Source: an uncultured Alphaproteobacteria bacterium (GTDB taxonomy: Bacteria > Pseudomonadota > Alphaproteobacteria > Rs-D84). From it: 64,000 bases of DNA. The DNA lies in the NCBI GenBank assembly GCA_905234185.1, contig CAJOGC010000002.1:1-64000 (forward strand), written 5' to 3'. Shown piece by piece: positions 1 to 17,144 of the stretch. Positions within the stretch are counted from its first letter, which is position 1. Each line of letters starts with the position of its first letter. The position numbers and the translations under genes are program-made. Under the pieces are notes generated by a model. It was not told where the DNA came from. It searched no databases and saw nothing but the letters and a program-made list of their open reading frames with translations.

Positions 1-56
1 CCCCCCCGCCGACCCACGCGACAAGTCGCGTGGGACCCCGCCCCCCCGCGCTCTGT

Positions 57-91
57 CGTATTCCCCTTCGCGCGTTGCGCGGGGGAATACG
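57..91. promoter_or_regulatory. Long imperfect hairpin immediately downstream of the DGR target stop codon (candidate cruciform/retrohoming hairpin and/or terminator)
   Basis: CGTATTCCCC(57-66) TT CGCGC GTT GCGCG GGGGAATACG(82-91): about 15 bp stem with one TT bulge, 4 nt beyond the stop codon at 96-98. A second perfect 10-bp stem lies at 13-34 (CCCACGCGAC aa GTCGCGTGGG). Confidence 0.6.
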
Positions 92-95
92 AAAA

Positions 96-533
96 TCAAT
101 CGCCGGCCGACCCGAACACGCCCCCGCGGAAGTCGGCGTAGGTGCGGACGTGGCGGCCGCAGTAGCTCGCGCAATTCGAAGCGCAGTCAGACGCGGAACT
201 GTACGCGCTGCGGTACACCCAAGCAGAGCGCGCAGGACGCAGCATCCGGCACCAACAATAAACACCTGTGGTGCCCTGCTCGAAGTTTGCATTGGGTCTT
301 GCCACCCCATATGAACCCGATGTGGAATTACATGTCGAAATGCCAGAAACCGTGCCATATGGGAAAGTTGCGGTCCATTCGCCCGACGTATTAGTATAAC
401 CAGTCCCCGCGATATCGGGATCCAATACGATTGCCACCATGTCGGATTCAACGCACATTGTTGTTGCGTTCGCGTTTGCGAACGCAACAATGGCCATCAA
501 TGGTATGACCGCGATGCGAAATGTGTTTTTCAT
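96..533 (-). CDS. Small secreted Cys-rich protein; DGR target whose C-terminus is the variable repeat
   Basis: 145 aa; Sec signal peptide MKNTFRIAVIPLMAIVAFANANA; SD AAGGAG upstream of ATG; the C-terminal 47 codons match the TR at 1234-1374 with only TR-adenine-specific differences. Confidence 0.9.
   Translation of the reverse strand: MKNTFRIAVIPLMAIVAFANANATTMCVESDMVAIVLDPDIAGTGYTNTSGEWTATFPYGTVSGISTCNSTSGSYGVARPNANFEQGTTGVYCWCRMLRPARSAWVYRSAYSSASDCASNCASYCGRHVRTYADFRGGVFGSAGD
102..242 (-). repeat. DGR variable repeat (VR)
   Basis: 141-bp gapless match to 1234-1374; 12 mismatches, all at TR-strand adenines; terminal 23 bp (102-124, GC-rich) identical to the TR, as expected for an IMH. Confidence 0.95.
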
Positions 534-977: not shown

Positions 978-1233
978 AAAAAATCTTGTTCCCCGTGACG
1001 TTCTGACGAAACGTCTACTAGCCACGGGGGACCCTGTGCAGTGTGTTCGTAAGATTGTGTTGCCACAATCAAACGGGATACATCGCCCCGCCTTTTGATT
1101 TACAAGGCAAACAAACGGATTCATTCGAACCCGAAAAGTGGTTTCGTATTGGTCGCCAATGAGTTCCCAATACCGCACTTTGTCCCACAGGTTGGCAAAA
1201 CTTTTTCCTTTGCTAAGTTTTGTGCCCCAAGGA
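978..1233 (-). ncRNA. Putative structured 3' portion of the DGR RNA (TR transcript), ending in a terminator-like stem plus T-run
   Basis: Minus-strand stems (plus coordinates): 1196-1203/1215-1222 CAAAACTT/AAGTTTTG; 1146-1152/1167-1173 GTATTGG/CCAATAC; 1090-1094/1104-1108 GCCTT/AAGGC; 1053-1059/1064-1070 GATTGTG/CACAATC; 991-1002/1010-1029 nested CCCCGTG + GACGTT / AACGTC + CACGGGG, followed on the minus strand by ...GATTTTTTACC. Confidence 0.5.
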
Positions 1234-1374
1234 GCCGGCCGACCCGAACACGCCCCTGCGGAAGTCGGCGTTGTTGCGGACGTTGTTGCCGCAGTTGTTC
1301 GCGCAATTCGAAGCGCAGTCAGACGCGGAACTGTTCGCGTTGTTGTACACCCAAGCAGAGCGCGCAGGACGCAG
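1234..1374 (-). repeat. DGR template repeat (TR), non-coding
   Basis: Conceptual minus-strand translation ...NNANSSASDCASNCANNCGNNVRNNADFRRGVFGSAG; nine AAC codons, every one substituted in the VR; no plausible start/stop architecture for a protein. Confidence 0.93.
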
Positions 1375-1545: not shown

Positions 1546-2056
1546 ACTACCCCGCCCTGCGGGCACCCCTTCGTGCAACGAAGGGGAGTTTAACTCTCGA
1601 CTACCCCGCCCTGCGGGCACCCCTTCGCACCGCGAAGGGGACTTTATTCTCGTCACAACTACCCCGTCACTTCGTGACACCCCTTCACGATGTGAAGGGG
1701 AGTTTATTCTCTGGAATCATTACTTTATTTTTATGCAATTATTCCAGATACCGCCATTCCCCTTCACCCCAGTGAAGGGGTGGACGCGTAGCGGACGGGG
1801 TAGTCAGAAAGACGCAGTTTGTTTTTACTTTCTTTGGCTCTCGCCACAACTACCCCGCCCTGCGGGCACCCCTTCGCACCGCGAAGGGGAGTTTTATTCT
1901 CGTCACAACTACCCCGTCACTTCGTGACACCCCTTCGCACCGCGAAGGGGAATTTATTCTCTGGAATCATTACTTTATTTTTATGCAATTATTCCAGATA
2001 CCGCTATTCCCCTTCACCCCAGTGAAGGGGTGGCGGGCAACGCCCGACGGGGTAGT
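1546..2056. repeat. Block B of nested palindromic (MITE-like) repeats: half-units at 1546, 1600 and 1849; full units 1658-1804 and 1908-2056
   Basis: Same unit as block A (147-149 bp); terminal inverted repeats ACTACCCCG/CGGGGTAGT; last unit abuts the RT stop codon. Confidence 0.85.
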
Positions 2057-3099
2057 CACCCCATCAAATACCGCCGCACAAATTCCGTCGTTTTCGGATT
2101 CGCAATCCCACGAACCCGATGACATATGTCACGCCGATAATTGTATGTATTCGCCCATCGCGACCAACCATATGCCGCCGATATTTGCCCCCGCGCCAGA
2201 TTCGATGTGTCGTTCCGATGCCCTATGTTCATTATGCGACGACGCATCTTATACGCCGTCCGTCGCCGCAATAATACAAAATTACGAAAATGACGGTATC
2301 CTATAAAGTCAACCCCGCGCGATGTCGGATATACCGATGCACGTGAAAATGTCAACTTTAACCGCGTTGCCAGAAATTCCCGTATCGATTCACATGCACG
2401 ATGCAACGCGTGCTTGTCATTGCCAAACAAACAAAAATCATCACAATAACGAATATAATCCGACCAATGCAATTCATGTTTTACAAACATGTCCAATTCA
2501 TTCAAGTAAACATTCCCCAGCCACTGGCTGGTCAAATTGCCAATCGGAATGTTTTTTCCAACACCACACGAATGAACAATATCGTCCAATATTCGGATTA
2601 TTCGATTGTCCGCAATCTTTTTACATATTATATCCATCATTACCGAATGATCCATCGATGGGTAAAATTTGTGTATGTCACAATTAAGCACATAACGATT
2701 GCGACGAACAAATTCCATCACACGACGCGATGCAGAATGCAACCCACGCCCCGGAATACACGCAAATGAATCACTTATAAATCGCGATTGCCATATCGGC
2801 CCCAATACATTTATTAACGCATGGTGCACAATGTGGTCCGGATACAACGGCAAAACATATATTGTGCGGGGCTTTGGTTCATAAATCTGGTGCACGCGGT
2901 ATGGCGATGTGTGAAAATTATCACGGCGCAATGTGTGCATCAAATCCATCATCATTTGCCGGCGATGCGCTAAAAAACTGCGCACATCACGTTTGGACTT
3001 TTTGCTGCGCACCGCGTTGCGCGCCGCACGTTCCAGATTTACACCGGAAATAAAATCATGCCAAAGATGTCTGAACCGTTTTGCCAATTTTACCCCCAA
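2056..3099 (-). CDS. Reverse transcriptase, DGR type
   Basis: 347 aa; IPIGNLTSQWLGNVYLNELDMFVKHEL (the DGR-characteristic SQ in motif 4) and catalytic YIRYCDDF; adjacent to a TR/VR pair. Confidence 0.93.
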   Translation of the reverse strand: MGVKLAKRFRHLWHDFISGVNLERAARNAVRSKKSKRDVRSFLAHRRQMMMDLMHTLRRDNFHTSPYRVHQIYEPKPRTIYVLPLYPDHIVHHALINVLGPIWQSRFISDSFACIPGRGLHSASRRVMEFVRRNRYVLNCDIHKFYPSMDHSVMMDIICKKIADNRIIRILDDIVHSCGVGKNIPIGNLTSQWLGNVYLNELDMFVKHELHWSDYIRYCDDFCLFGNDKHALHRACESIREFLATRLKLTFSRASVYPTSRGVDFIGYRHFRNFVLLRRRTAYKMRRRIMNIGHRNDTSNLARGQISAAYGWSRWANTYNYRRDICHRVRGIANPKTTEFVRRYLMG

Positions 3100-3101
3100 A
3101 A

Positions 3102-3446
3102 CTAGGAAAACGAATAATACCGATCAATTTTAACAACCGTCGCATTAAACGGTATGTTGTCACCGACAGATGATATCTGATCCATTAAAACCGCACTGCC
3201 GGTGAACGAAACACAAACCGTATCATCCAGCAAATACTGAAATTGCAGGCAATCCTGGCCCGGGTGATGCTTGGATTTCATAATACGAAAATCCGTCACC
3301 AGTATTTCACGGTTTAATATCTGGTCCAATCGCATCTTGGTCCCCGGCAACGGCAATTTGCCACGCGCAAATACCGAAAATGCGGGAAATTTTGTCTTAT
3401 CAAGATTCAATACCTGGGCCGGTGTCATGGCATCACCATATCGCAC
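3102..3446 (-). CDS. Hypothetical 114-aa protein, possible OB-fold/ssDNA-binding-like; candidate DGR accessory factor
   Basis: Stop is 2 bp from the RT start; C-terminal pattern ...IPFNATVVKIDRYY resembles small phage ssDNA-binding-like proteins (weak); not an obvious Avd four-helix sequence. Confidence 0.5.
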   Translation of the reverse strand: MRYGDAMTPAQVLNLDKTKFPAFSVFARGKLPLPGTKMRLDQILNREILVTDFRIMKSKHHPGQDCLQFQYLLDDTVCVSFTGSAVLMDQISSVGDNIPFNATVVKIDRYYSFS

Positions 3447-3903
3447 TAAACATTCCCGTGCGAAATGCAGTCGATGTCTTTACCATATTCGCACAGTCCG
3501 CCGCACAACCCGATGCACACGCCGCATCTGACTGATATGTTTGGGTAAATGTCCAATATGAATGCGCGGGCGCCCACATTTCACACCAACAATTCGAACC
3601 TTCGTCCGATGTCGTGGTAAATAACGCCGTGTTCGCAGTGTTCGCCGTACCACTTATTTCATTGCATGCCGCAATGCCGGATATGGTTTGGGATGTATTG
3701 TTTAATACCGATAATGTCGTGTAATCAAATGTCACAGACCATGTACGCGCAGATGCATCAGATGTCATAGATGTACCGTCCGTCGATTTAGATAGTAATA
3801 TCACCGCCGTATTGCGCTTGCGACAAATATCCGTGTCCGCAAATGCAGTTGCCATTGTCATCATTCCGCAAAGTATATATATTAAATGTTTCATATTTTC
3901 CAC
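3433..3903 (-). CDS. Secreted Cys-rich protein, paralog of the DGR target
   Basis: Signal peptide; C-terminus NCWCEMWAPAHSYWTFTQTYQSDAACASGCAADCANMVKTSTAFRTGMF aligns without gaps to YCWCRMLRPARSAWVYRSAYSSASDCASNCASYCGRHVRTYADFRGGVF of the target. Confidence 0.75.
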   Translation of the reverse strand: MENMKHLIYILCGMMTMATAFADTDICRKRNTAVILLSKSTDGTSMTSDASARTWSVTFDYTTLSVLNNTSQTISGIAACNEISGTANTANTALFTTTSDEGSNCWCEMWAPAHSYWTFTQTYQSDAACASGCAADCANMVKTSTAFRTGMFSAIW

Positions 3904-5115: not shown

Positions 5116-5144
5116 TAAAAAAACGCCCGAATGGGCGTTTTTTA
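5116..5144. terminator. Bidirectional terminator
   Basis: AAAAAAACGCCCGAATGGGCGTTTTTTA. Confidence 0.8.
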
Positions 5145-7379
5145 TTTTCCAAACTTTCCACTGCGCGGGAAACCGACCGGAATCGTGCGACCCTGGGTTG
5201 CGCGTTTGCCAACCCACGGTTGCCAATCGTCCAGTTTCGTTGTGCCGCGACCCGTTGTCCAACCGAACCCGTCCGCCGCGTTAAAGAACATTGCATCAAT
5301 CGTGTATGTCCGTTCGGCATTGTATTTTTGTAATATCACGCCCTTGCCCCGGGTCATTTCCGGAATTTCCGTTGCACTGAATATCAACAGTTTATCATTT
5401 GACCCCGACATCGCGACCGTGTCACCCACAACATCGACACACAGCACCGCCGGATTCCGATCATCAACATTCATAACCTGCTTTCCGTTTTTGGTCTGGG
5501 CCAGGCAATTTTCACCAGACACAATGAACCCAATTCCATGCCGCGCAACCAGCAAATATTTCGAATCCGCATGCAACACAAATGCCCGAACAATGTTTTC
5601 ATCCGGACCAATATCCGCCATCATACGCACCGATTCACCGAACCCACGCGCCGATGGCAAATCATTCGCGCTTAGCGTAAACATTTTTCCAGACGAACCG
5701 AACAGATTAACCTTGTCCGTGGACATTGCATGAAATGCGCACAATAATTCATCGCCCTCTTTGAATTTCATATCCAAATTGTTCAGGTCCAAATGCCCCT
5801 TGGCCGCGCGAATCCAGCCCATTGTGGACAATATTACGGTTATTGGTTCCTTTTCGATAAATTCGTCCGCATTAACCACAATCTCTTCGGTCTGTTCCGC
5901 CCAGGTTGTGCGACGACGCCCCAGCGCAGTTTTTTTATCATAACGTTTTTTAATGTCGGTGAACCACGCCTTTAACTGTTCGTTTTGCATTTCTTCGCTG
6001 GCCAGCAATGCCTGCAACTGCTTCTGTTCCGCTAACAATTCCGCGTTTTCACGTTTGATTTCCATTTCCTCTAATTTACGCAGGCTGCGCAGACGCGTGT
6101 TCAAAATCGCCTCTACCTGCAACTCGGTCAATTTGAATTCGTCCATCAAAACGGCCTTGGCGTCGTCTTCGGTTCGGATAATTTCAATAACCCGATCCAG
6201 GTTCAAATAAACAATCAGCAACCCGCCCAGTATCTCTAACCGGCGTGTGATATTGCCCAGTCGCCAATTCGTGCGTCGCAACAACACTTTTTTCTGGTGC
6301 GTGATAAATTCACGCAAAACATCACCAATTCCCATAACATGTGGCGCACCGTTGGAATCGATGACATTGAAATTCATATTAAACTTATATTCTAAATCGG
6401 TGGTTGCGAACAAATGTGCCATCAACTTTTCCGGTGGCACATTACGCGTTTTTGGGGTAATAATAATGCGTACATCCGTTGTTGATTCATCAACAATATC
6501 ATCAACCAGTGGCAACTTCTTGGCATCAATTAACCCCGCAATCTGTTCCACCAACTTTGACTTAATCAAACCATACGGTATTTCGGTAATAGCAATTTGA
6601 TAACCACCACGGTCCAAATCTTCTATTTCCCAACGCGCACGAATACGGAACGCACCACGACCGGTATCATAGTTTTTACAAATTGTATCAAAATTATCTA
6701 TTAAAACACCGCCGGTTGGAAAATCGGGACCAACCAATTTCTTCATAATCTGCGAAGTTGTTGCATCGGGTTTATCCACAACCAGGTTCAATGCATCGCA
6801 AACCTCGGCCACATTATGGGTCGGAATGTTTGTTGCCATACCAACCGCAATACCCATACCACCATTTGCCAGCAAGTTTGGAAACGCGCCCGGCATAACC
6901 GTTGGTTCAACCGTTGTGCCATCAAAGTTAGGCATCATGTCGACACTGTCTTCGTCGATACCCTCCATAATCAGCATGGCGGCATCGGTCATTTTAGATT
7001 CAGTGTAACGGTACGCAGCCTGGGGGTCACCATCGATATTACCAAAATTTCCCTGGCCATCAATCAATGGATAACGAACCGAAAAATCCTGGGCCAGTCG
7101 CACCATTGCATCATACACCGACGAATCACCGTGCGGGTGATAATGCCCCAACACATCACCAACAACCGTTGCACATTTGCGGAACGCCGCCGCGGGCGAC
7201 AATTTTTGCCGCAGCATAGAGAACAAAATACGGCGATGCACCGGCTTTAACCCGTCACGAACATCGGGCAACGCACGCGATACAATGGTCGACACCGCAT
7301 ACGACAGATACCGTTCCGAAATTGCATCGGACAACTGCTGGGAATCGATTCTTTCAACAAAATTCGTATTTTTTGACAT
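5142..7379 (-). CDS. parC: DNA topoisomerase IV subunit A
   Basis: 745 aa; ERYLSYAVSTIVSRALPDVRDGLKPVHRRIL..GDVLGHYHPHGDSSVYDAMVRLAQDF..YRYTESKM. Confidence 0.93.
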   Translation of the reverse strand: MSKNTNFVERIDSQQLSDAISERYLSYAVSTIVSRALPDVRDGLKPVHRRILFSMLRQKLSPAAAFRKCATVVGDVLGHYHPHGDSSVYDAMVRLAQDFSVRYPLIDGQGNFGNIDGDPQAAYRYTESKMTDAAMLIMEGIDEDSVDMMPNFDGTTVEPTVMPGAFPNLLANGGMGIAVGMATNIPTHNVAEVCDALNLVVDKPDATTSQIMKKLVGPDFPTGGVLIDNFDTICKNYDTGRGAFRIRARWEIEDLDRGGYQIAITEIPYGLIKSKLVEQIAGLIDAKKLPLVDDIVDESTTDVRIIITPKTRNVPPEKLMAHLFATTDLEYKFNMNFNVIDSNGAPHVMGIGDVLREFITHQKKVLLRRTNWRLGNITRRLEILGGLLIVYLNLDRVIEIIRTEDDAKAVLMDEFKLTELQVEAILNTRLRSLRKLEEMEIKRENAELLAEQKQLQALLASEEMQNEQLKAWFTDIKKRYDKKTALGRRRTTWAEQTEEIVVNADEFIEKEPITVILSTMGWIRAAKGHLDLNNLDMKFKEGDELLCAFHAMSTDKVNLFGSSGKMFTLSANDLPSARGFGESVRMMADIGPDENIVRAFVLHADSKYLLVARHGIGFIVSGENCLAQTKNGKQVMNVDDRNPAVLCVDVVGDTVAMSGSNDKLLIFSATEIPEMTRGKGVILQKYNAERTYTIDAMFFNAADGFGWTTGRGTTKLDDWQPWVGKRATQGRTIPVGFPRSGKFGK

Positions 7380-7469
7380 ATCGTTATCTTATTTTTACCT
7401 ATAAAACTTAAAACATTGCAAAAAAAATAACAACAGAAAAAATCATTTTAACCTTGACAAACTAAATTA

Positions 7470-8285
7470 TTGTCATATATTACTGTAGAAATGAAGTTGA
7501 GAATCATAAAATTTGAATATCCTATTATCTTGGCAAGCATAGTTCTTTTGCTTGGTGGCGCCGCACAATCAAAACAAAAAAATATCCAACGTACCGCACC
7601 AACATTGGCGGACGTTGACAATGTTGCCGTTCATAAAAAGCTGTTTGATTCGGTGACACCACAAATGTATCGGCCAATAAACACAATTGACTTAGATAAA
7701 ATTGGGATCTCCAAGATACAATCGAAAGCTATGTTTCGCCCAAAAGTTATAAGTGCATCCAGAACACCAGACGGTGTATGCTATATTTTTAGCAATGGCG
7801 AAAAGGTTGAACGCTGTGGTGGTAGTATCGCATGGCGCAACAACAATCCTGGATGCATTCGTTATTCTGACAAAATTGCCGCGATGGGTGCAATTGGTGT
7901 AGCAAACAAATTTGCTATATTTCCAGACGAAGAAACAGGGATGCGTGCGATAAAACGCCTGTTGTTATCCGATAATTACTGCAATTTAAGCATTGTAAGT
8001 GCCATTGGCAGATATGCCCCACCCCATGAAAATAATACAGAAAGATATATAAAATCATTATGCAGACTGGTTGGTGTCCAAAAACACACTAAGTTATGCG
8101 ATTTGAACGACGAACAGATTGATTGTGTTGTGAATGCTATTCGCAGATTAGAAGGCTGGATTATTGGTACAGAAAAATGTACGCCCGCACCAAACAAGGA
8201 ATTAGGTTCCCCAAATGGTATAACCACACCGAATAAACTTATTACATATTATACACAGTGTGCTTTTTTTGACCGATCAATATAA
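7470..8285 (+). CDS. Exported/membrane-anchored hypothetical protein with RNNNPG motif
   Basis: N-terminal hydrophobic segment; WRNNNPGCIRYSDK motif seen in phage/cell-wall-associated proteins. Confidence 0.6.
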   Translation: MSYITVEMKLRIIKFEYPIILASIVLLLGGAAQSKQKNIQRTAPTLADVDNVAVHKKLFDSVTPQMYRPINTIDLDKIGISKIQSKAMFRPKVISASRTPDGVCYIFSNGEKVERCGGSIAWRNNNPGCIRYSDKIAAMGAIGVANKFAIFPDEETGMRAIKRLLLSDNYCNLSIVSAIGRYAPPHENNTERYIKSLCRLVGVQKHTKLCDLNDEQIDCVVNAIRRLEGWIIGTEKCTPAPNKELGSPNGITTPNKLITYYTQCAFFDRSI

Positions 8286-8309
8286 AAAAACGCCAAATCG
8301 GCGTTTTTT
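8284..8309. terminator. Bidirectional terminator
   Basis: AAAAAAACGCCAAATCGGCGTTTTTT. Confidence 0.75.
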
Positions 8310-8584
8310 CAATTTATCTTATTCTTGATTTCCCGAATTCGTGCCAAAATCTCATACAAATCGGCGTCTGTCACGGATGGTGTTGGTCGATTTCTGATTT
8401 CGTCTGCCATAACAATACACAATGTCGCCAGTAATGAACTTTCCGGCAAAGGGCCGATTTTATCCAATATCTCCCGCGCGCGCGCATCAACCATTTTACC
8501 AAGTTCAATCAGGCGCGCCTCTTGGCCATCTTCGCACCCCATGGTATAATTTTTATTAACAATAGGTATCGAAACTACGCTCAT
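8309..8584 (-). CDS. zapA: Cell division protein ZapA
   Basis: 91 aa; VSIPIVNKNYTMGCEDGQEARLIELGKMVDARAREI. Confidence 0.8.
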   Translation of the reverse strand: MSVVSIPIVNKNYTMGCEDGQEARLIELGKMVDARAREILDKIGPLPESSLLATLCIVMADEIRNRPTPSVTDADLYEILARIREIKNKIN

Positions 8585-8790
8585 GATAACTTCTTTAATA
8601 TGCTCAATGACTTATCAACCATTTCCGCCGCACGTTTGTTTTTGTCGCGCAGTGTTTTTACCTGCTCTGTTAAAATTGCGACCTCAAGATCCGTCTGGCG
8701 TCCCGCAAACGCGGCCGACGACCGCAGACGCGATGTCGCTTCTTCCAGTGCGGACAATTCTTGAAATATTTGTTGTTTTATATCAGGCAT
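8581..8790 (-). CDS. Short coiled-coil protein
   Basis: 69 aa heptad-like sequence, overlaps the zapA start. Confidence 0.55.
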   Translation of the reverse strand: MPDIKQQIFQELSALEEATSRLRSSAAFAGRQTDLEVAILTEQVKTLRDKNKRAAEMVDKSLSILKKLS

Positions 8791-8857
8791 GTTGCCATTT
8801 TAAGATATTTTTTATATGCGTTCAACTCTAAAATGTGATATAATGCGCGCATAAAGT

Positions 8858-9838
8858 GTGGGGATTTATGGTATGAAAACAAAAATCATTTATATTTCTG
8901 GTGGCGAAGTTTTCAATATGGCGGATATTCGGGCCGCGTTCGATACGGTGCGGGACGCATTGTCTTTGGATAACGAAACCGTGTTGTTTGGCGTACCAAT
9001 TGATAACGATGATGCATTCGCTGTGGATAAATCCGACACACCCGTCGAATCGGCCTTTATAGACGATTCGGTCGAAATTGCATCTAATGTGAACGATGAT
9101 GTTGTTGTGTCGGCCAAAATCGATACGCCCGAATTAGCACCTGAACCGGAACCCGTTATTGAAAAACCTAAAAAAACGGCACACGCTTCGCGGGCTAAGG
9201 TTATACCGATTACCACCGCGACAACCACCCCGGATTCCACCACCCAAGAAAACGAACCATCGACAAATGATGGCACCGCTATTCCTATTTTGTCTGTGTT
9301 GGGTGCAACATCGGACGATCAGACATCGAACGATTCCACAACCCAGGAAACCGCAAATACGCCGGTTGCCGCGGAAGATTTACAACCCAAAAATACCACG
9401 GTCATGCAACCGGATGCACAATCTGTGACAATTAGCGACATGTTGGCCGATGACACCACCCCGGTTGATAATCACGAAAAAACATTGGAAGAATTACTGG
9501 AAAGTATGACACCACTTGGCGAAGACGAAAAAACTAAGCCGACGCCGGTGGCGGAAACAGAACCAGTGACCGAAACCACACCGGCACAAACGACAAACGA
9601 TGATACCGATGCCACATTGGAATTGTTGGCGGCGGAATTTGCCGAATCTGCGGATAAAATTGTCACACCACGACCGGAAACACGTAGCAAAATCGGGAAA
9701 CTGAAAAACATTTTGCCGTTCAAAAAGGTAAAAAAACAAGATAATGGTATAATGGGCGACTTGTTTGGATGGGCCGGTGTTGCCAATGATGAAGATTTTA
9801 CAATACCTGGATTCTTTGCTAATGCGACAAAAAAGTAG
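8858..9838 (+). CDS. Low-complexity acidic Thr/Glu/Asp-rich hypothetical protein
   Basis: Long ORF; GTG start at 8858 or ATG at 8873. Confidence 0.6.
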   Translation: MGIYGMKTKIIYISGGEVFNMADIRAAFDTVRDALSLDNETVLFGVPIDNDDAFAVDKSDTPVESAFIDDSVEIASNVNDDVVVSAKIDTPELAPEPEPVIEKPKKTAHASRAKVIPITTATTTPDSTTQENEPSTNDGTAIPILSVLGATSDDQTSNDSTTQETANTPVAAEDLQPKNTTVMQPDAQSVTISDMLADDTTPVDNHEKTLEELLESMTPLGEDEKTKPTPVAETEPVTETTPAQTTNDDTDATLELLAAEFAESADKIVTPRPETRSKIGKLKNILPFKKVKKQDNGIMGDLFGWAGVANDEDFTIPGFFANATKK

Positions 9839-9841
9839 GAC

Positions 9842-10303
9842 ATGAATACCGAAGAGATAGTCACATTATTAACAAATTCTGGCATTCGTGTGTTGGACAC
9901 GGATTCTTATTCTGTATACATCGAAGACCCATCGTGCATTCTGCGTGGATTTGAAACCTTTGTGGAATACGCATGGATTATTATAACAATAATAACTGGT
10001 TTCTTGTTATTTGGGTGGGCGGTATCGATGATACGCGGTGACAAGAATGATATTCTGATTAATATTCGAAATCTGTTTCTGCTGTTTGCTGCATTGTCTT
10101 TGGTTGGCCCCATCATAAACATGATTTACGGAGATGACATTTTTGGCATCGGATGCAAAACCATTAATATTTCAAAATACGATTTAAATACATTGCTGGA
10201 TGCGCGTTATAAAAAGATGTCGATTACAACCGATGATTTATATGAGAATGTATCAATAAAAGATTCCGAACCCGTCAAAAATACGGACACACGCAACAAC
10301 TAG
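9842..10303 (+). CDS. Hypothetical inner-membrane protein
   Basis: Two TM-like segments. Confidence 0.6.
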   Translation: MNTEEIVTLLTNSGIRVLDTDSYSVYIEDPSCILRGFETFVEYAWIIITIITGFLLFGWAVSMIRGDKNDILINIRNLFLLFAALSLVGPIINMIYGDDIFGIGCKTINISKYDLNTLLDARYKKMSITTDDLYENVSIKDSEPVKNTDTRNN

Positions 10304-10986
10304 CCTTTTATAAATGGATAGTATGTGCGCATAGAAAACACCTTTTCTCCCGCGACCAGAATAAGATCATAAAATTCGATTTCCAAACTTTTCAAAACAG
10401 ATATTACTAATTGTGTACTGTCCAAATCATCTTGAGAAAACGCGTGGTCTGACATGGGATGATTATGAACCATCACAACAGAACGTGCATTCAATTCCAA
10501 TGCGCGTCGCGCAATTTCCCGGGGATAAACAAGACTGGTATTAAATGTTCCCGTACTGTGTGTTTCATCAGAAATAAGTTGCAAATTATGGTCCAGATAC
10601 AGTAAATGTAATTCTTCGACCCGTTTGTTCGCCAACACCATACGGCAATAATTGTGTAAAATTTTCTCGTCGTGAAACACGGGCATATCTTTCATTTGCC
10701 CTTTGTAATTCACGGTCATTATTTCTTTTACCAACTTTATGAACACGGCGGTATTGTGGCCAATACCCTTGCACGCGACCAGTTCATCAACAGAAGCATT
10801 AAAAACCTTATACACACCGCCAAACCGTTGCACCAAACTGCGCGCCAATGGGCGAACATCGCGTCGCGGAATCGCATATGCCAACAACAATTCTAGTTTT
10901 TCATTATCCGTTAATTTGCCATCCAATAACTTGGCGCGTAATCTTTCGCGATGACCGGCATAAAACTTTTCATCAGTATCCGGCAA
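10300..10986 (-). CDS. radC: RadC-family JAB/MPN protein
   Basis: SVVMVHNHPMSDHAFSQDD (HxH..SxxD) motif. Confidence 0.88.
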   Translation of the reverse strand: MPDTDEKFYAGHRERLRAKLLDGKLTDNEKLELLLAYAIPRRDVRPLARSLVQRFGGVYKVFNASVDELVACKGIGHNTAVFIKLVKEIMTVNYKGQMKDMPVFHDEKILHNYCRMVLANKRVEELHLLYLDHNLQLISDETHSTGTFNTSLVYPREIARRALELNARSVVMVHNHPMSDHAFSQDDLDSTQLVISVLKSLEIEFYDLILVAGEKVFSMRTYYPFIKG

Positions 10987-11001
10987 TTTATAAATCCCCC
11001 A

Positions 11002-11769
11002 TTACATCATGCGTTCTGTAAATATTATAACCCCATCTTCGGTGATTCCCAGTGTATGTTCCCACTGGGCCGACAAACCGCCATCGACTGTACGCGCGGT
11101 CCACCCATCGGCATCTATTTTACATTCGGGGCGTCCTGTATTTATCATCGGTTCTATGGTGAACACCAATCCAGGAACCATTTTTACACGATCCCACATC
11201 TTGTCATAAAAGTGATATATTTGTGGTTCATCATGCATGACTTTGCCAATACCATGACCAACAAAATCGCGTGATATCGAAAATCCATGTGGTTTTACGA
11301 CCGCTTCTATTGTTTTACCGATTTCAGATAACGGCACCCCGGGCGCGCATATCGATATTGCTGCGTTCAGCGCATCTTGGCATGTTTGTACCAGTTCGCG
11401 CGCCTTGGGCGAAACATTACCAATCATAAACATCCGTGACGCATCGCCGTGCCACCCCTTGTATTCTGCAGTTAAATCTACATTGACGATATCACCATCT
11501 TTCAATATTACATCATCACTTGGTATACCATGCACAATAACATCATTAACCGATGTGCAAATACTTTTCGGATACCCCTGGTACCCCAAATCGGATGATC
11601 GCGCGCCATTTTCGCGCAAGAATTCGGCAACCATACGATCGATTTCACCGGTCGATATGCCCGCCCGAATATATGGCGATATGTAATCGAAACAACGCGC
11701 AACCAAATCGCCCGACACACGCAAGCGTTTAAAATCTTTTGGTGCATATACAGATGCCAACATTTTCAA
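11002..11769 (-). CDS. map: Type I methionine aminopeptidase
   Basis: VDLTAEYKGWHGDASRMF, FVGHGIGKVMHDEPQI, FTIEPMINTG. Confidence 0.92.
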   Translation of the reverse strand: MKMLASVYAPKDFKRLRVSGDLVARCFDYISPYIRAGISTGEIDRMVAEFLRENGARSSDLGYQGYPKSICTSVNDVIVHGIPSDDVILKDGDIVNVDLTAEYKGWHGDASRMFMIGNVSPKARELVQTCQDALNAAISICAPGVPLSEIGKTIEAVVKPHGFSISRDFVGHGIGKVMHDEPQIYHFYDKMWDRVKMVPGLVFTIEPMINTGRPECKIDADGWTARTVDGGLSAQWEHTLGITEDGVIIFTERMM

Positions 11770-12755
11770 TTCCTTTTTTTGATTGCTAATTTGGACGCAC
11801 GCATTGCCAACTTTAACGAAAAATCGCGTAATAATATTTCCGCTGGCATACCAGTGGTGCGTAATTGCCCTTCTAACTCGCTTAATCGCACTAATACAGA
11901 TGTTATATCAGATTCAGACCATATTTTCAATGCCCTGCGGAATTTATCTTCGACTTTCCAAAAAAGACGCGGTAATTGACCATCGACGACCGCCACCAAC
12001 AATCTTTTGAAATGACTGTTCAGCATTCGAATCAACATATTTGGTTCGGCACCACTGTACAATAAACGATCCAATGCCATCATGGTCTGGGTCAAATGTC
12101 CGGCCGTTAATGAAAACAGATAATCATCTGTATCAACGGCACCGGTATCCGGCAAACATTTTTCCACATCTTCTAATTCAACGATATGTTTATCACTGAC
12201 ATAAATTGCGATTTTATTAAGAAACCCGCGTGTAATCCCACGATCGCCCCCTAAATGCGTTGTCATATATGCCATTGCGTCCGGTGTAATTTGTTTTATA
12301 CCAGATTGTGCGGACAATGTTTCGCGAATTAATGATTCAAGTGTTCTTTCATCATCCGTATAACATGGCAATATCGCGATATTATCACCAGATTCGAACA
12401 AAGAACGCAACCCACCACCAGCACGCAATTCCCCAGCGGTAATAATCACAATTGCCGCCAAACCTGGATGAGAAATCAGTTCAGATATAACCCCCACATC
12501 ACTGTCACCGGCATTAGAAATTATCACCATTTTTTGTCCGCCAAACATCGACGGGGTACAACTTTCCGCAAACAAGGCTTCTTGTTTGGTGACCAAATCA
12601 TCGGCATCCAACACGAACAAATTATCCTTTTCTATGCCCAGTTGTTCAATGGCACGATCGCAATACTCGTCAACCTGACCAGCATCCGGACCATATATTA
12701 ATACTGCGCGAACTTTTGTTATCCCGCCTTTAAAATCGGATTCTTTCCATTTCAT
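11766..12755 (-). CDS. holA: DNA polymerase III subunit delta
   Basis: HolA-like sequence, located downstream of lptE as is common. Confidence 0.8.
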   Translation of the reverse strand: MKWKESDFKGGITKVRAVLIYGPDAGQVDEYCDRAIEQLGIEKDNLFVLDADDLVTKQEALFAESCTPSMFGGQKMVIISNAGDSDVGVISELISHPGLAAIVIITAGELRAGGGLRSLFESGDNIAILPCYTDDERTLESLIRETLSAQSGIKQITPDAMAYMTTHLGGDRGITRGFLNKIAIYVSDKHIVELEDVEKCLPDTGAVDTDDYLFSLTAGHLTQTMMALDRLLYSGAEPNMLIRMLNSHFKRLLVAVVDGQLPRLFWKVEDKFRRALKIWSESDITSVLVRLSELEGQLRTTGMPAEILLRDFSLKLAMRASKLAIKKRN

Positions 12756-13309
12756 TGCTTTTTGGTGTCCGTATTTGCATATTTATATGTTTCCGCAATA
12801 GCGCGATTTGCGATTTTTTCCGCCAATACGGTGATAGTGTTCTGGACCGCACTGTTATATGACGCGTTCGATGCGACTAAATAACGCACAAAAGAATATG
12901 ATTCAGACGCAGATTCGCGTCCAGTCGCAACAACCTTGTCCCCCGCCAACAGTGTATATGTGGCCACCAACGATATTTCTTGCCATGTGGAAACACCGGT
13001 TGCTTCCAGAGCCTTATACTTAGTGGTTGGATCGTACAACACAACATTCAGTGTATATTGTGCATTGGAATCCCGTTGTCCACCAAAATATGTGTTCAAC
13101 GCATTGCGTAATTCAATCCCATTAACACCACTGGCAATCGGGGCAACATAGATATTGGTATCATTATCTGAAAACATTGGCCGAAACCCGCACCCGACCA
13201 ACAATAAAAACAGTAATAATTTTTTCACGCGATTTACCTTTTTGTTTGCGACAAAAGTTTTCCTGTTGCAATTTATTTTTATATTACCTAGACTTTTAAT
13301 AAATCGCAA
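12752..13309 (-). CDS. lptE: LPS-assembly lipoprotein LptE-like
   Basis: LLLVGCGFRPMF lipobox, overlapping holA. Confidence 0.75.
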   Translation of the reverse strand: MRFIKSLGNIKINCNRKTFVANKKVNRVKKLLLFLLLVGCGFRPMFSDNDTNIYVAPIASGVNGIELRNALNTYFGGQRDSNAQYTLNVVLYDPTTKYKALEATGVSTWQEISLVATYTLLAGDKVVATGRESASESYSFVRYLVASNASYNSAVQNTITVLAEKIANRAIAETYKYANTDTKKQ

Positions 13310-13318
13310 GGGGGAAAG

Positions 13319-14557
13319 ATGAATATTTTTATCATGATTTTAATTGCCTTGTTTATGGGAACATATTATTTGATTTCCAGCCCGTCTTTGCGCATTCGCG
13401 AACAAGAAATTGACTATGCCATAACTCGTGCTGATTTACGGGCAATTGCCGAATGCACACTGGCGGCGCACAATGCCACGATTAACGGTATGGACTTTGA
13501 TGATGTATGCGTGTCCCAAAATAAGATAGAAAGCCATGTTGTGTGTATGACCGCTAAAAATGCCATTGTATCATGTGAAAGTGACCAAAGAAATAAAAAG
13601 CCAGAATATACATACATTCTTACCACTACATCCCCTATTCCGGACGCCACATATAACGATATGATGGAAGTTCTGGAACAGAACTATGCCGATGTTGGTA
13701 CTTTTGGCGTGTTTATAGACAATCAAATCATATCCGGGGGCGGGACCAAGCGCAATATACCAAACGCAATGCTCAAAGAATTACCAGTCACAAACGGACA
13801 ATTGGTGTATTTGACCCAATATTCTGTACCGGACACCGAAACGGACTATGAAACCGTCGATGCCGATGATATGATATGCCCCGCCGGCACGGCAAAGGTT
13901 TATCGTTTCAGCCGATGGCAATGTGTAAATGTCAACACAAAAACGAATTGCGCGGGCGACATGATTTGGGATGCCGGTTCATCTGAATGTATTCCGGACG
14001 AATCGCGAAAACCGCTTTGTGCGGCCCAACAAACCGCTGTGATTGTTGATGATGTGTGGGAATGCATTAATCCATTTTCGGAAAAAACTTGTCCGAATAA
14101 CATGGTTGCGCGTCTGAATTATAATACACTGGAATGGGAATGTGTATCGGACCCGAATGCAATCCAGGCCGCAAAGAAATGCGATCATATGGTTGGCGGC
14201 GTAATATATGGGAAGCAAGGTGCAACATTACGTATTCCGACATCTTCGTGTACGGATTGTGAAACCCAGTATATTGATCCGAACACTTGCCGTGCAACAT
14301 GTTTGCCAGACAAATCAAAATTGAATGATTTGCGTTGTTATCCAGAAAACGCACGCACCTGTGATGGTTCGTCCCGTGGATTTTACTTCGGATTTCCGGA
14401 TGCCACATACATTGCAAATGTGTCCGTTGTTCGTTCTGTTTCGGTTCCATTGGACGCAGAACATTCGAAAAACCGTAAATTTAATTGCATGGATTGTGGC
14501 GCGCGTGGCATAAATAAAGCCAAATCATTGCCCCCATATGTAATTGTATGTAATTAA
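13319..14557 (+). CDS. Cys-rich envelope protein with N-terminal TM/signal anchor
   Basis: Repeated Cys-rich segments (CPAGTAKVYRFSRWQCVN...). Confidence 0.6.
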   Translation: MNIFIMILIALFMGTYYLISSPSLRIREQEIDYAITRADLRAIAECTLAAHNATINGMDFDDVCVSQNKIESHVVCMTAKNAIVSCESDQRNKKPEYTYILTTTSPIPDATYNDMMEVLEQNYADVGTFGVFIDNQIISGGGTKRNIPNAMLKELPVTNGQLVYLTQYSVPDTETDYETVDADDMICPAGTAKVYRFSRWQCVNVNTKTNCAGDMIWDAGSSECIPDESRKPLCAAQQTAVIVDDVWECINPFSEKTCPNNMVARLNYNTLEWECVSDPNAIQAAKKCDHMVGGVIYGKQGATLRIPTSSCTDCETQYIDPNTCRATCLPDKSKLNDLRCYPENARTCDGSSRGFYFGFPDATYIANVSVVRSVSVPLDAEHSKNRKFNCMDCGARGINKAKSLPPYVIVCN

Positions 14558-14580
14558 AAACGCCCGAACGGGCGTTTTAA
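14556..14580. terminator. Bidirectional terminator
   Basis: AAAAACGCCCGAACGGGCGTTTT. Confidence 0.8.
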
Positions 14581-14585
14581 TTTCA

Positions 14586-15512
14586 TTACTTGTATTCTTT
14601 GCCTTTTATACTGTTTTTTATCTGTTCCAGTTTTGCACATTGCTGTTGATATTGTTCAATTTCTTTATTCTCATATTCTTCGGGTGTTATATGAACGTTT
14701 GTTTTTTTCCAAAATTCATCTATCTCGTATTTAATACGTTCTTCTTCGCCATCATGGGAAAAATCATCAATAGCGTCATTTTTATCCGCCCCCGTTATGG
14801 GTGGTGCAATCGAAATATTACTCGTTTTACCGAACGGTTTTTGTGTCAGTTCAAATGGTTTATTCGTTCGCGTTCCGTTTGGATGTCGTTTTTTTATGAC
14901 ATTTAACATCTCGGCCCGATATTCTTTGTGTTTGAAATCTTCGACATTCTGGCTTGCGATTTTGTGAATGATTTTTCGTAATAAAGTTAATTTTTTGTAA
15001 TAAACGCTGAAATTTTCCAATTGAATCCAACCGTCCGTGGTTTCTATTTCCGGATTCCACCCACCAGTAGCATCGGGCATTGCCCGCATATACGTAATAA
15101 GATCAGACCAAATATCCTTTACAATATCATAGCCCGGGGTGTTTTCTGGCACCGGATGGTCGCAAAATCTGAAAATCACATCGCCACGATTAATCGGAAA
15201 CGGCGCAACCGTTCCGAAACGGACCGGATTATAAGACATTTCATACCACAACGCCCGGCAAATCACATACCCATCGATATGCCCAACCCGAATGGGGGCA
15301 CTTTTTACCGGCCGATCTAAATTCTGGGTGCGCCGCAATAAACCATGCGCATAGTCAAGTTCCGCAGCCGTAAATTTGCTAAAATATGCGCGTCTTGTAT
15401 TATATTTCAGAATGTTGCGCGATATTTTTTCAAGTTTTTTATCCATACATACCTCCCTGGGCCATATTAAATATAGCACATATTTTGTTTTTGTCAACCA
15501 CCGGTCCAACAA
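14586..15512 (-). CDS. Hypothetical protein
   Basis: 308-aa ORF; start possibly internal (MDKKLEK...). Confidence 0.6.
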   Translation of the reverse strand: MLDRWLTKTKYVLYLIWPREVCMDKKLEKISRNILKYNTRRAYFSKFTAAELDYAHGLLRRTQNLDRPVKSAPIRVGHIDGYVICRALWYEMSYNPVRFGTVAPFPINRGDVIFRFCDHPVPENTPGYDIVKDIWSDLITYMRAMPDATGGWNPEIETTDGWIQLENFSVYYKKLTLLRKIIHKIASQNVEDFKHKEYRAEMLNVIKKRHPNGTRTNKPFELTQKPFGKTSNISIAPPITGADKNDAIDDFSHDGEEERIKYEIDEFWKKTNVHITPEEYENKEIEQYQQQCAKLEQIKNSIKGKEYK

Positions 15513-15516
15513 TCAA

Positions 15517-15544
15517 CAAAAATGGGGCGTTTTGCCCCATTTTC
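15517..15544. terminator. Terminator
   Basis: AAAAATGGGGCGTTTTGCCCCATTTT. Confidence 0.7.
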
Positions 15545-15545
15545 A

Positions 15546-17144
15546 TTATCCATCGCACCTTTGATATTCGCCACGTTCCAGCAATTCTTTGACCATATGG
15601 TGTTTGATTTTTTTTGCCGATGTTTGTGGCAATTCTTTTTCGGTAATCGCAAAATGTTTCACCCATTTATATTGTGCAATTTTAAGATTCGATGCCTTGA
15701 CTAACAGTGAAATATATTCCGCCTTGGTTCCCGGCTTTACCTGAAACACCGCGTACGGAACGATTTTGCCATTAATTTTATACTCGAAAACGGCGGCCGC
15801 TAAAATATCTGGATTTTGCAGATACAGGTCTTCCATTTCTTCGGGCCAAATCTTTTTACCGCTTTCCAGAACGATTAGTTGTTTCTGGCGTCCCTTTACG
15901 ACCAGACGCCCCTTGGAATCAAGCATTCCAACATCACCGGTTTTGAACCATCCGTCTTCGAATGCAGCGGCGTTTGCTTCGTCATTACCAATATATCCCG
16001 GCATTAACATTGGTCCACGGAACCATATTTCACCAACGCCGTCCTTGTCTGGATTGTGAATCTTTAATTCATTACCACGCAACGGCCCCGCATAGTGGAT
16101 GCCACGGCCGTTTTTCTTTGGTACCGCCCAGTTAAACAATGCTGGTCCTGTTGTTTCGGTCAAGCCAAAGCAATCGCCAACCGAAAATCCCAACTTTTCA
16201 TAGAATTTACGAATCGTTGGCTTTAATGGTGCACCGGCGGAAACCAGAACGCGCGTCCGACCACCGAAAATATCATGCACAGGCTTTGTGACTTTGTTCA
16301 CCAACCCCCCCATGCCAATTTTGCGCAACGGTTTTTGTAATGCCAATATGATTCGCATAATTGTCCATAAATGTTTTTCGCGTGCACCATCCACAATTTT
16401 TTTATAAAACACCTCCCAAATACGTGGCACTGCGGGAATAACCTCTGGCTTGTACTGTTTCCAATCTGCAACAAATTCGGCGGGCTTAAGGACGGGCTGT
16501 AATAACAGTTTTCCCTGCATCGTGACCGGACACACAACATTAATTACAATCCCATATATATGGTATAATGGTAAAAACCCATAGAATGTAAATCCAGGTT
16601 TAACCACATGGGTGTAATCTTCGGCCCCCTCACACAATGACAACAAATTTCCATGTGTAATCCCCACCACCTTTGGATTACCGGTTGATCCGGATGTGAA
16701 CGACATTTGCGCAATATCAGAACGTTTTACATCTGCGGCAATAAATTCGGTTTCATCTGTATCATCGACATTCTGGATATTAACCATTTCGACATCGCAA
16801 TCAAACATATGTGGCCGATCCGCCAAAGCCAATTTTGCCCCCGTGCGTTTCATCATATTAATATGTTCTTCATGCGCCAACCCGGTGTCCAGCAATAAAG
16901 CGCATGCCCCGATTGACAGAATTGCATAATACGATTCTATGAATTCGGGAATATTAGAACACAGCAATGCAACAACATCGCCCTTTTTAATGTGAAACTG
17001 TTTTACCAACAAGACCGCGCGCTTTTGCACCGCGCGCAAAAATTCCGCATATGTCTTGTTTTCGCGAACAAAGAAAACTTTGTCCCCATTGCGGGCACAA
17101 ACATCTGCCAGCATCTCATACATATTTTTCATTGTTTCTAACAT
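15546..17144 (-). CDS. AMP-dependent acyl-CoA synthetase/ligase
   Basis: MSFTSGSTGNPKVVGITH, GYIGNDEANAAAFEDGWFKTGDVG. Confidence 0.88.
   Translation of the reverse strand: MLETMKNMYEMLADVCARNGDKVFFVRENKTYAEFLRAVQKRAVLLVKQFHIKKGDVVALLCSNIPEFIESYYAILSIGACALLLDTGLAHEEHINMMKRTGAKLALADRPHMFDCDVEMVNIQNVDDTDETEFIAADVKRSDIAQMSFTSGSTGNPKVVGITHGNLLSLCEGAEDYTHVVKPGFTFYGFLPLYHIYGIVINVVCPVTMQGKLLLQPVLKPAEFVADWKQYKPEVIPAVPRIWEVFYKKIVDGAREKHLWTIMRIILALQKPLRKIGMGGLVNKVTKPVHDIFGGRTRVLVSAGAPLKPTIRKFYEKLGFSVGDCFGLTETTGPALFNWAVPKKNGRGIHYAGPLRGNELKIHNPDKDGVGEIWFRGPMLMPGYIGNDEANAAAFEDGWFKTGDVGMLDSKGRLVVKGRQKQLIVLESGKKIWPEEMEDLYLQNPDILAAAVFEYKINGKIVPYAVFQVKPGTKAEYISLLVKASNLKIAQYKWVKHFAITEKELPQTSAKKIKHHMVKELLERGEYQRCDG

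Follow-up and report, generated by a model that had tools for sequence, protein, structure and literature searches.

The locus described here raises the question of whether a diversity-generating retroelement (DGR) can act on a protein scaffold other than the C-type lectin (CLec). In a survey of >30,000 DGRs, the annotated domains carrying the variable region (VR) were systematically CLec, and this fold was called seemingly unique for such variation (PMC8144416). The solved DGR targets Mtd, TvpA, AvpA, and TaqVP are all four CLec proteins (PMC6328139). In tentaclins, the domain bearing the VR is predicted to be a CLec and adjoins Ig domains (PMC10743442), and the Ig assignment of DGR targets was withdrawn in the Roux 2021 reanalysis (PMC8144416). 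The reading proposed here, to which a probability of about 0.8 is assigned, is that a chromosomal DGR hypermutates a small exported, putative ligand-binding protein on a scaffold distinct from CLec.

The window, i.e., the whole stretch of 64,000 nucleotides that was analysed, starts at the end of contig C2 of an 895 kb assembly (95% complete). A sequence-only reading had placed a 145-aa ORF with a Sec signal peptide at 96-533 and regarded it as a DGR target. The ORF was found as described, with a Sec-type leader ending in ...ANANA/TTMC, a pattern that is shared by other single-domain members of the family. The target and its template region comprise the following features:

96-533, minus strand: DGR target gene ('A' protein), a 145-aa ORF with ATG start and a member of the family; the mature protein corresponds to residues 24-145
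465-533, minus strand: signal peptide, residues 1-23 (MKNTFRIAVIPLMAIVAFANANA), assigned from sequence; without lipobox
102-242, minus strand: VR, assigned by TR comparison and corresponding to strand 5, helix 1, and helix 2 of the domain in the predicted secondary structure
102-124, minus strand: IMH-like VR end of 23 nt, the same in the TR and without coding-strand A (TR/VR sequences)
56-92, minus strand: hairpin with an 11-bp stem, directly 3' of the VR
1234-1374, minus strand: template repeat (TR), with 10 Asn codons (9 AAC, 1 AAT) at variable positions
1134-1233, minus strand: conserved element directly 3' of the TR, from a 22-sequence alignment; core GCYAACCTGNRGGACA at 1181-1196

In the target/TR/RT interval (568-2060 of the window), palindromic GAAGGGG/CCCCTTC repeats are numerous and accompanied by direct repeats of 141 nt.

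VR and TR differ at 12 positions over 141 nt, and every difference falls on a TR adenine (A to G in five cases, to C in four, and to T in three). With a TR adenine content of 25/141, the chance of 12/12 differences at A is ~6e-11 (hypergeometric, hand-calculated). All nine AAC codons are altered from TR to VR, in addition to one AGG, which is changed to GGG. The diversified segment, WVYRSAYSSASDCASNCASYCGRHVRTYADFRGGVF, had been quoted correctly, and the assignment as a DGR target is borne out by the adenine-specific differences together with an intact reverse transcriptase (RT), accessory ORF, and TR. Near-repeats with substitutions at template adenines are similarly present at other loci of the genus. 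The absence of coding-strand A from the 23 nt at the 3' end of the VR is as expected of an IMH, and this invariant end is followed by a hairpin, as recognised by sequence. Hairpins are also located 3' of most other VRs in the genus.

The remaining components are encoded upstream of the target on the same strand:

2056-3099, minus strand: DGR-type RT, 347 aa, with the motifs IGNLTSQ and RYCDDF (assigned by phrog_1423, RVT_1, and clade)
3102-3446, minus strand: accessory ORF, 114 aa, adjoining the RT; fold unassigned
3433-3903, minus strand: 'B' paralog of the target domain, undiversified, with Trp at its end; the likely start is the ATG at 3894

The RT matches phrog_1423 with an E-value of 7.5e-96, as well as RVT_1. 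Its IGNLTSQ motif conforms to the pattern of DGR-clade RTs ([IVL]GxxxSQ), and it groups with RTs having TR/VR pairs. No Avd was matched among the ORFs scanned; a different conserved ORF lies beside the RT. Avd is not universal among DGRs. As the accessory ORF accompanies related RTs at 76 of 80 phage loci and is present in nearly all DGRs of the genus, its distribution indicates a general accessory of this RT clade. No published name for it was found in the open-access literature. The conserved element 3' of the TR shows 16 invariant columns in the alignment of 22 sequences from genus DGRs and probably belongs to the template RNA. Consensus folding gave no compensatory changes, so that no RNA structure is proposed for this element; in an Rfam search, its E-value matches were far below the gathering scores.

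Activity was assessed by comparison of six close orthologs. Of the TR-A sites in the VR, 36-76% differ, compared with 4-22% of the other VR sites and 10-39% of positions in the remaining gene. The differences at TR-A sites point to recent or ongoing mutation, and the overall pattern fits repeated homing, with the template keeping the remaining VR.

Of 192 genomes searched, 89 contain the target domain and 33 the RT. Most RT loci contain TR/VR repeats with A-biased changes, amounting to 28 pairs, 27 of them within the genus. In 25 of these 27, the VR is in frame and located in the same domain; in the two further pairs, the automated reading did not give that frame for the VR. Judged by sequence, the same domain would thus be diversified at about 27 DGR loci of this genus, whose members are gut Alphaproteobacteria with small genomes. 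Targets that could be read are between 141 and 1135 aa long. With a 115-member profile, the domain was detected in 142 of the 191 genomes searched from the order, nearly all of them belonging to one family; a sample of 290 genomes of the class yielded three with the domain, all of this genus. Some genomes have 20 or more domain copies. Related public records come from uncultured Alphaproteobacteria, in many cases from the rumen or from the gut of horse, buffalo, or deer. The ATP/ADP translocase (PF03219), which would indicate an intracellular life style, was matched nowhere, but neither were the controls of that search, so that its absence carries no information. The arrangement of the loci varies: in G013, one TR serves two diversified copies inside a single 677-aa protein, and in G021, G031, G068, and G103, VRs are found on another contig or inverted relative to the TR. 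In G068, the RT-adjacent VR (L066 5102-5237 / L099 7743-7874 pair) is frameshifted, and the distant VR of the same TR is intact. On contig C4 of the same genome as the window (L003 640-2361, L284 1369-2622), two more family domains are part of larger, exported-looking proteins; one of them resembles an old VR pattern that the window TR does not explain. G249 (L282 5240, 7164-15941) encodes a 2925-aa protein with a Tyr/Ser-rich domain copy at its end and the TR-flank motif nearby, and this locus is likely a further DGR.

The C-terminal domain of the target has no relative above cut-offs in Pfam, NCBIfam, PHROG, PDB, or PADLOC. An AlphaFold2 model based on the 115-member family alignment (pLDDT 88, pTM 0.80) has the topology beta(5)-alpha(2). 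In mature numbering, the predicted strands comprise residues 22-26, 29-34, 37-46, 69-76, and 82-87, and the predicted helices, which are C-terminal to the strands, residues 91-108 and 110-118. Foldseek comparison of this model with the PDB returned nothing at E <= 0.001 (best E 2.2, highest listed query TM 0.31), and comparison with viral models (BFVD) returned no match. The Mtd-like target domain of a phage DGR with a related RT served as positive control in the same pipeline. The control model was weaker (pLDDT 75), yet it matched Mtd (1e-7), FGE, and TaqVP. Since the pipeline recognises a CLec even from the weaker model, the absence of a CLec match for the target is informative. A CLec fold around the VR is not seen in the predicted structure, and neither is an Ig beta-sandwich carrying the VR, as two predicted helices lie in the VR and neither Pfam nor PDB gave a match. 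Furthermore, META/HslJ (PF03724) was considered and rejected: 11 of the 115 members match it weakly (best E 0.0037), but only over a short stretch and, where the Pfam cut-off was given, below it, and the fold comparison with the PDB gave no counterpart. The suggestion of a non-CLec, non-Ig and possibly new scaffold thus withstands the structure prediction and fold comparison with known targets that had been proposed for it, neither a CLec structure nor a close described target family having been found. The domain appears to be a scaffold distinct from the C-type lectin, its fold being a prediction. No description of it was found in the open-access literature, although published DGR catalogues may contain its sequences without a name.

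If the first Cys of the helix is taken as position 0, variation in the 25 TR/VR pairs falls on positions -9, -8, -6, -1, 3, 6, 7, 10, 11, 14, and 15. The alternation of variable-residue pairs with Cys at i, i+4, and i+8, pointed out for the window, recurs in these 25 pairs, 24 of which are from relatives. In the predicted structure, the variable sites occupy the end of strand 5 and one stripe of the helix. The positions on helix 1 have a periodicity peak at 95 degrees (permutation p 0.0002), and the variable face is ~105 degrees away from the Cys. At most variable positions the TR codon is Asn (AAY), and Tyr, Ser, Arg, Gly, Asp, and His are enriched among the VR residues. Six Cys are near-invariant, namely 45, 70, and 72 in the sheet region and 94, 98, and 102 in helix 1 (mature numbering); each is present in 112-115 of 115 members and lies off the variable stripe. 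The three helix Cys are invariant in TRs, and the sole departure among VRs is one frameshifted VR. C45 and C94 are lost jointly in two family members (n=115), which hints at a C45-C94 disulfide. Beyond residue 20, most single-domain members contain 7 or 9 Cys, and most domains within larger proteins contain 6; an extra N-terminal Cys may join two chains. The sequence-only reading of a helical variable tail holds in part: most of the predicted variable surface is helix, and the Cys lie outside the variable stripe, but the domain also has a five-stranded sheet, and the end of strand 5 is variable as well.

The signal peptides would place the proteins outside the cytoplasm, and it is plausible that the target is a mini surface or secreted binder; the single-domain protein shows no membrane anchor. 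Larger relatives of 3084 and 4109 aa contain five or six domain copies each, consistent with a binding module. The 4109-aa protein (G088, L281 5-12334) combines five domain copies with List_Bact repeats and a C-terminal Endonuclease I domain. B genes are located directly upstream of A-type genes in ~20 tandem pairs, with or without a DGR nearby, and the B paralogs in these pairs mostly terminate in Trp. An exported ligand-binding A/B pair with A as the variable partner is favoured, ligand binding being putative.

In a midpoint-rooted RT tree, the 27 RTs of the genus form one clade (support 1.0), separate from phage RTs and from two RTs found in other genera of the order; the direction of change is inferred from this rooting. 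The tested targets of related phage loci are Mtd-like (PF21916; PDB Mtd E 3e-12), and most related phage DGR targets have the FGE/Mtd-type motif GGxW..GSR..GGRG in common, which is not present in the target VR. By the same motif, the VR of G128, from another family of the order, is CLec-like. Compared with the related phage RTs, which serve CLec, the genus DGRs have apparently undergone a lineage-wide scaffold switch. The simplest reading of these sequences would be a single acquisition followed by retargeting to a domain already present in multiple copies.

One challenge to a new scaffold is that the domain is a very divergent CLec, missed by sequence and fold searches alike. This would agree with the expectation of Roux et al. 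2021 (PMC8144416) that uncharacterised VR domains are new CLec variants, and with the CLec targets in DGRs with related RTs. It is nevertheless considered highly improbable, given that the predicted order is E-E-E-E-E-H-H and the VR takes up the final strand and both C-terminal helices, that the Cys pattern is not CLec-like, and that the target model matches none of the CLec structures matched by the control. An origin of a different kind, a prophage cassette whose target is a phage receptor-binding protein, is suggested by the RT of the window, which is 43-51% identical to many phage RTs. Against it stand the signal peptide of the target and the single clade of the genus RTs, as well as the lack of any relative of the domain in 80 phage RT loci or, by single-protein and alignment pattern scans, in 2.9 million viral contigs. 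A larger alignment contained no segment of sufficient conservation for such scanning. In addition, a 745-aa ORF (5142-7379), presumably a topoisomerase/gyrase A subunit, lies ~1.2 kb upstream of the B gene. A prophage cassette is thus exceedingly unlikely.

Two other alternatives accept the DGR and its scaffold but differ in activity or role. The cassette could be a relic here, with variability from past activity only, and relatives do show decay: a VR of G068 is frameshifted, and the RT frames of G023 and G080 are split or broken. In the window, however, the reading frames of RT, accessory ORF, and target are uninterrupted and the TR retains its AAC codons, which makes a relic improbable. A real DGR could also have a periplasmic role in conflict or sensing, e.g., recognition of phages or rival toxins, rather than in adhesion. 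DGR targets of multicellular bacteria have been proposed as antigen sensors (PMC10907252), and the Endonuclease I domain of the giant protein bearing the target domain is in line with such a role. However, the genes scanned at the locus included no recognisable defence effector, PADLOC gave no match for target or accessory ORF, and the adhesin-like List_Bact repeats of the large members favour a surface role, so that a conflict function is a serious but rather unlikely option.

For an exported binder diversified by an active DGR, the following course can be envisaged. A phage-type DGR, whose relatives serve Mtd-like lectins, would have been taken up and re-aimed at a domain that had previously expanded within this bacterial family. 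The TR RNA would undergo copying that is error-prone at A, and the product would home into the VR, where ~10 Asn codons could each give rise to any of 15 residues; AAY codons would give no stops. Three disulfides formed by the Cys would pin the helix to the sheet, so that the helix 1 stripe and the end of strand 5 would present an exposed binding face rich in Tyr, Ser, and Arg. Outside the cytoplasm, the A protein, probably with its co-encoded B paralog, would recognise changing partners, for which gut protist, bacterial, phage, or host surfaces are candidates. In a broader reading, which is also rather likely, this gut lineage replaced CLec by a disulfide-stapled beta-sheet/helix DGR target, giving some species an antibody-like repertoire of >20 paralogs per genome, part of it hypermutated on a helical face.

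The mutation machine is of a known kind, and the predicted shape of its target is unlike the lectin shape of nearly all reported targets. The DGR of Bordetella phage BPP-1 with its target Mtd (PDB 1yu0-1yu4) likewise combines a TR/VR pair, A-specific changes, an RT, a C-terminal VR, and an IMH-like end with downstream hairpin, and RTs related to the present one act on Mtd-like proteins in phages. In contrast, Mtd is a tail fibre protein varying a CLec, whereas the present target is a cellular exported protein varying a predicted beta-sheet/helix domain with conserved Cys, and another accessory ORF takes the place beside the RT, where no Avd is recognised. TvpA, AvpA, and TaqVP share with it a DGR-diversified ligand-binding domain (binding being inferred here) and the existence of single-domain targets, but they are CLec (PMC6328139), as opposed to a predicted fold of five strands and two helices without Foldseek match. 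Tentaclins and 'Ig-like' DGR targets are comparable in that they were formerly thought to be non-CLec; the present domain differs in being, by prediction, neither CLec nor Ig.

The domain thus appears to be a second natural scaffold for rapid protein variation by DGRs. A well-supported exception to CLec would show that the mutation machinery is not bound to one fold, would give a scaffold switch traceable on the RT tree, and would offer a natural scaffold of ~120 aa with a variable face that is largely helix. For the organisms themselves, the data point to an exported, hypervariable family of proteins in a gut lineage that has received little study.
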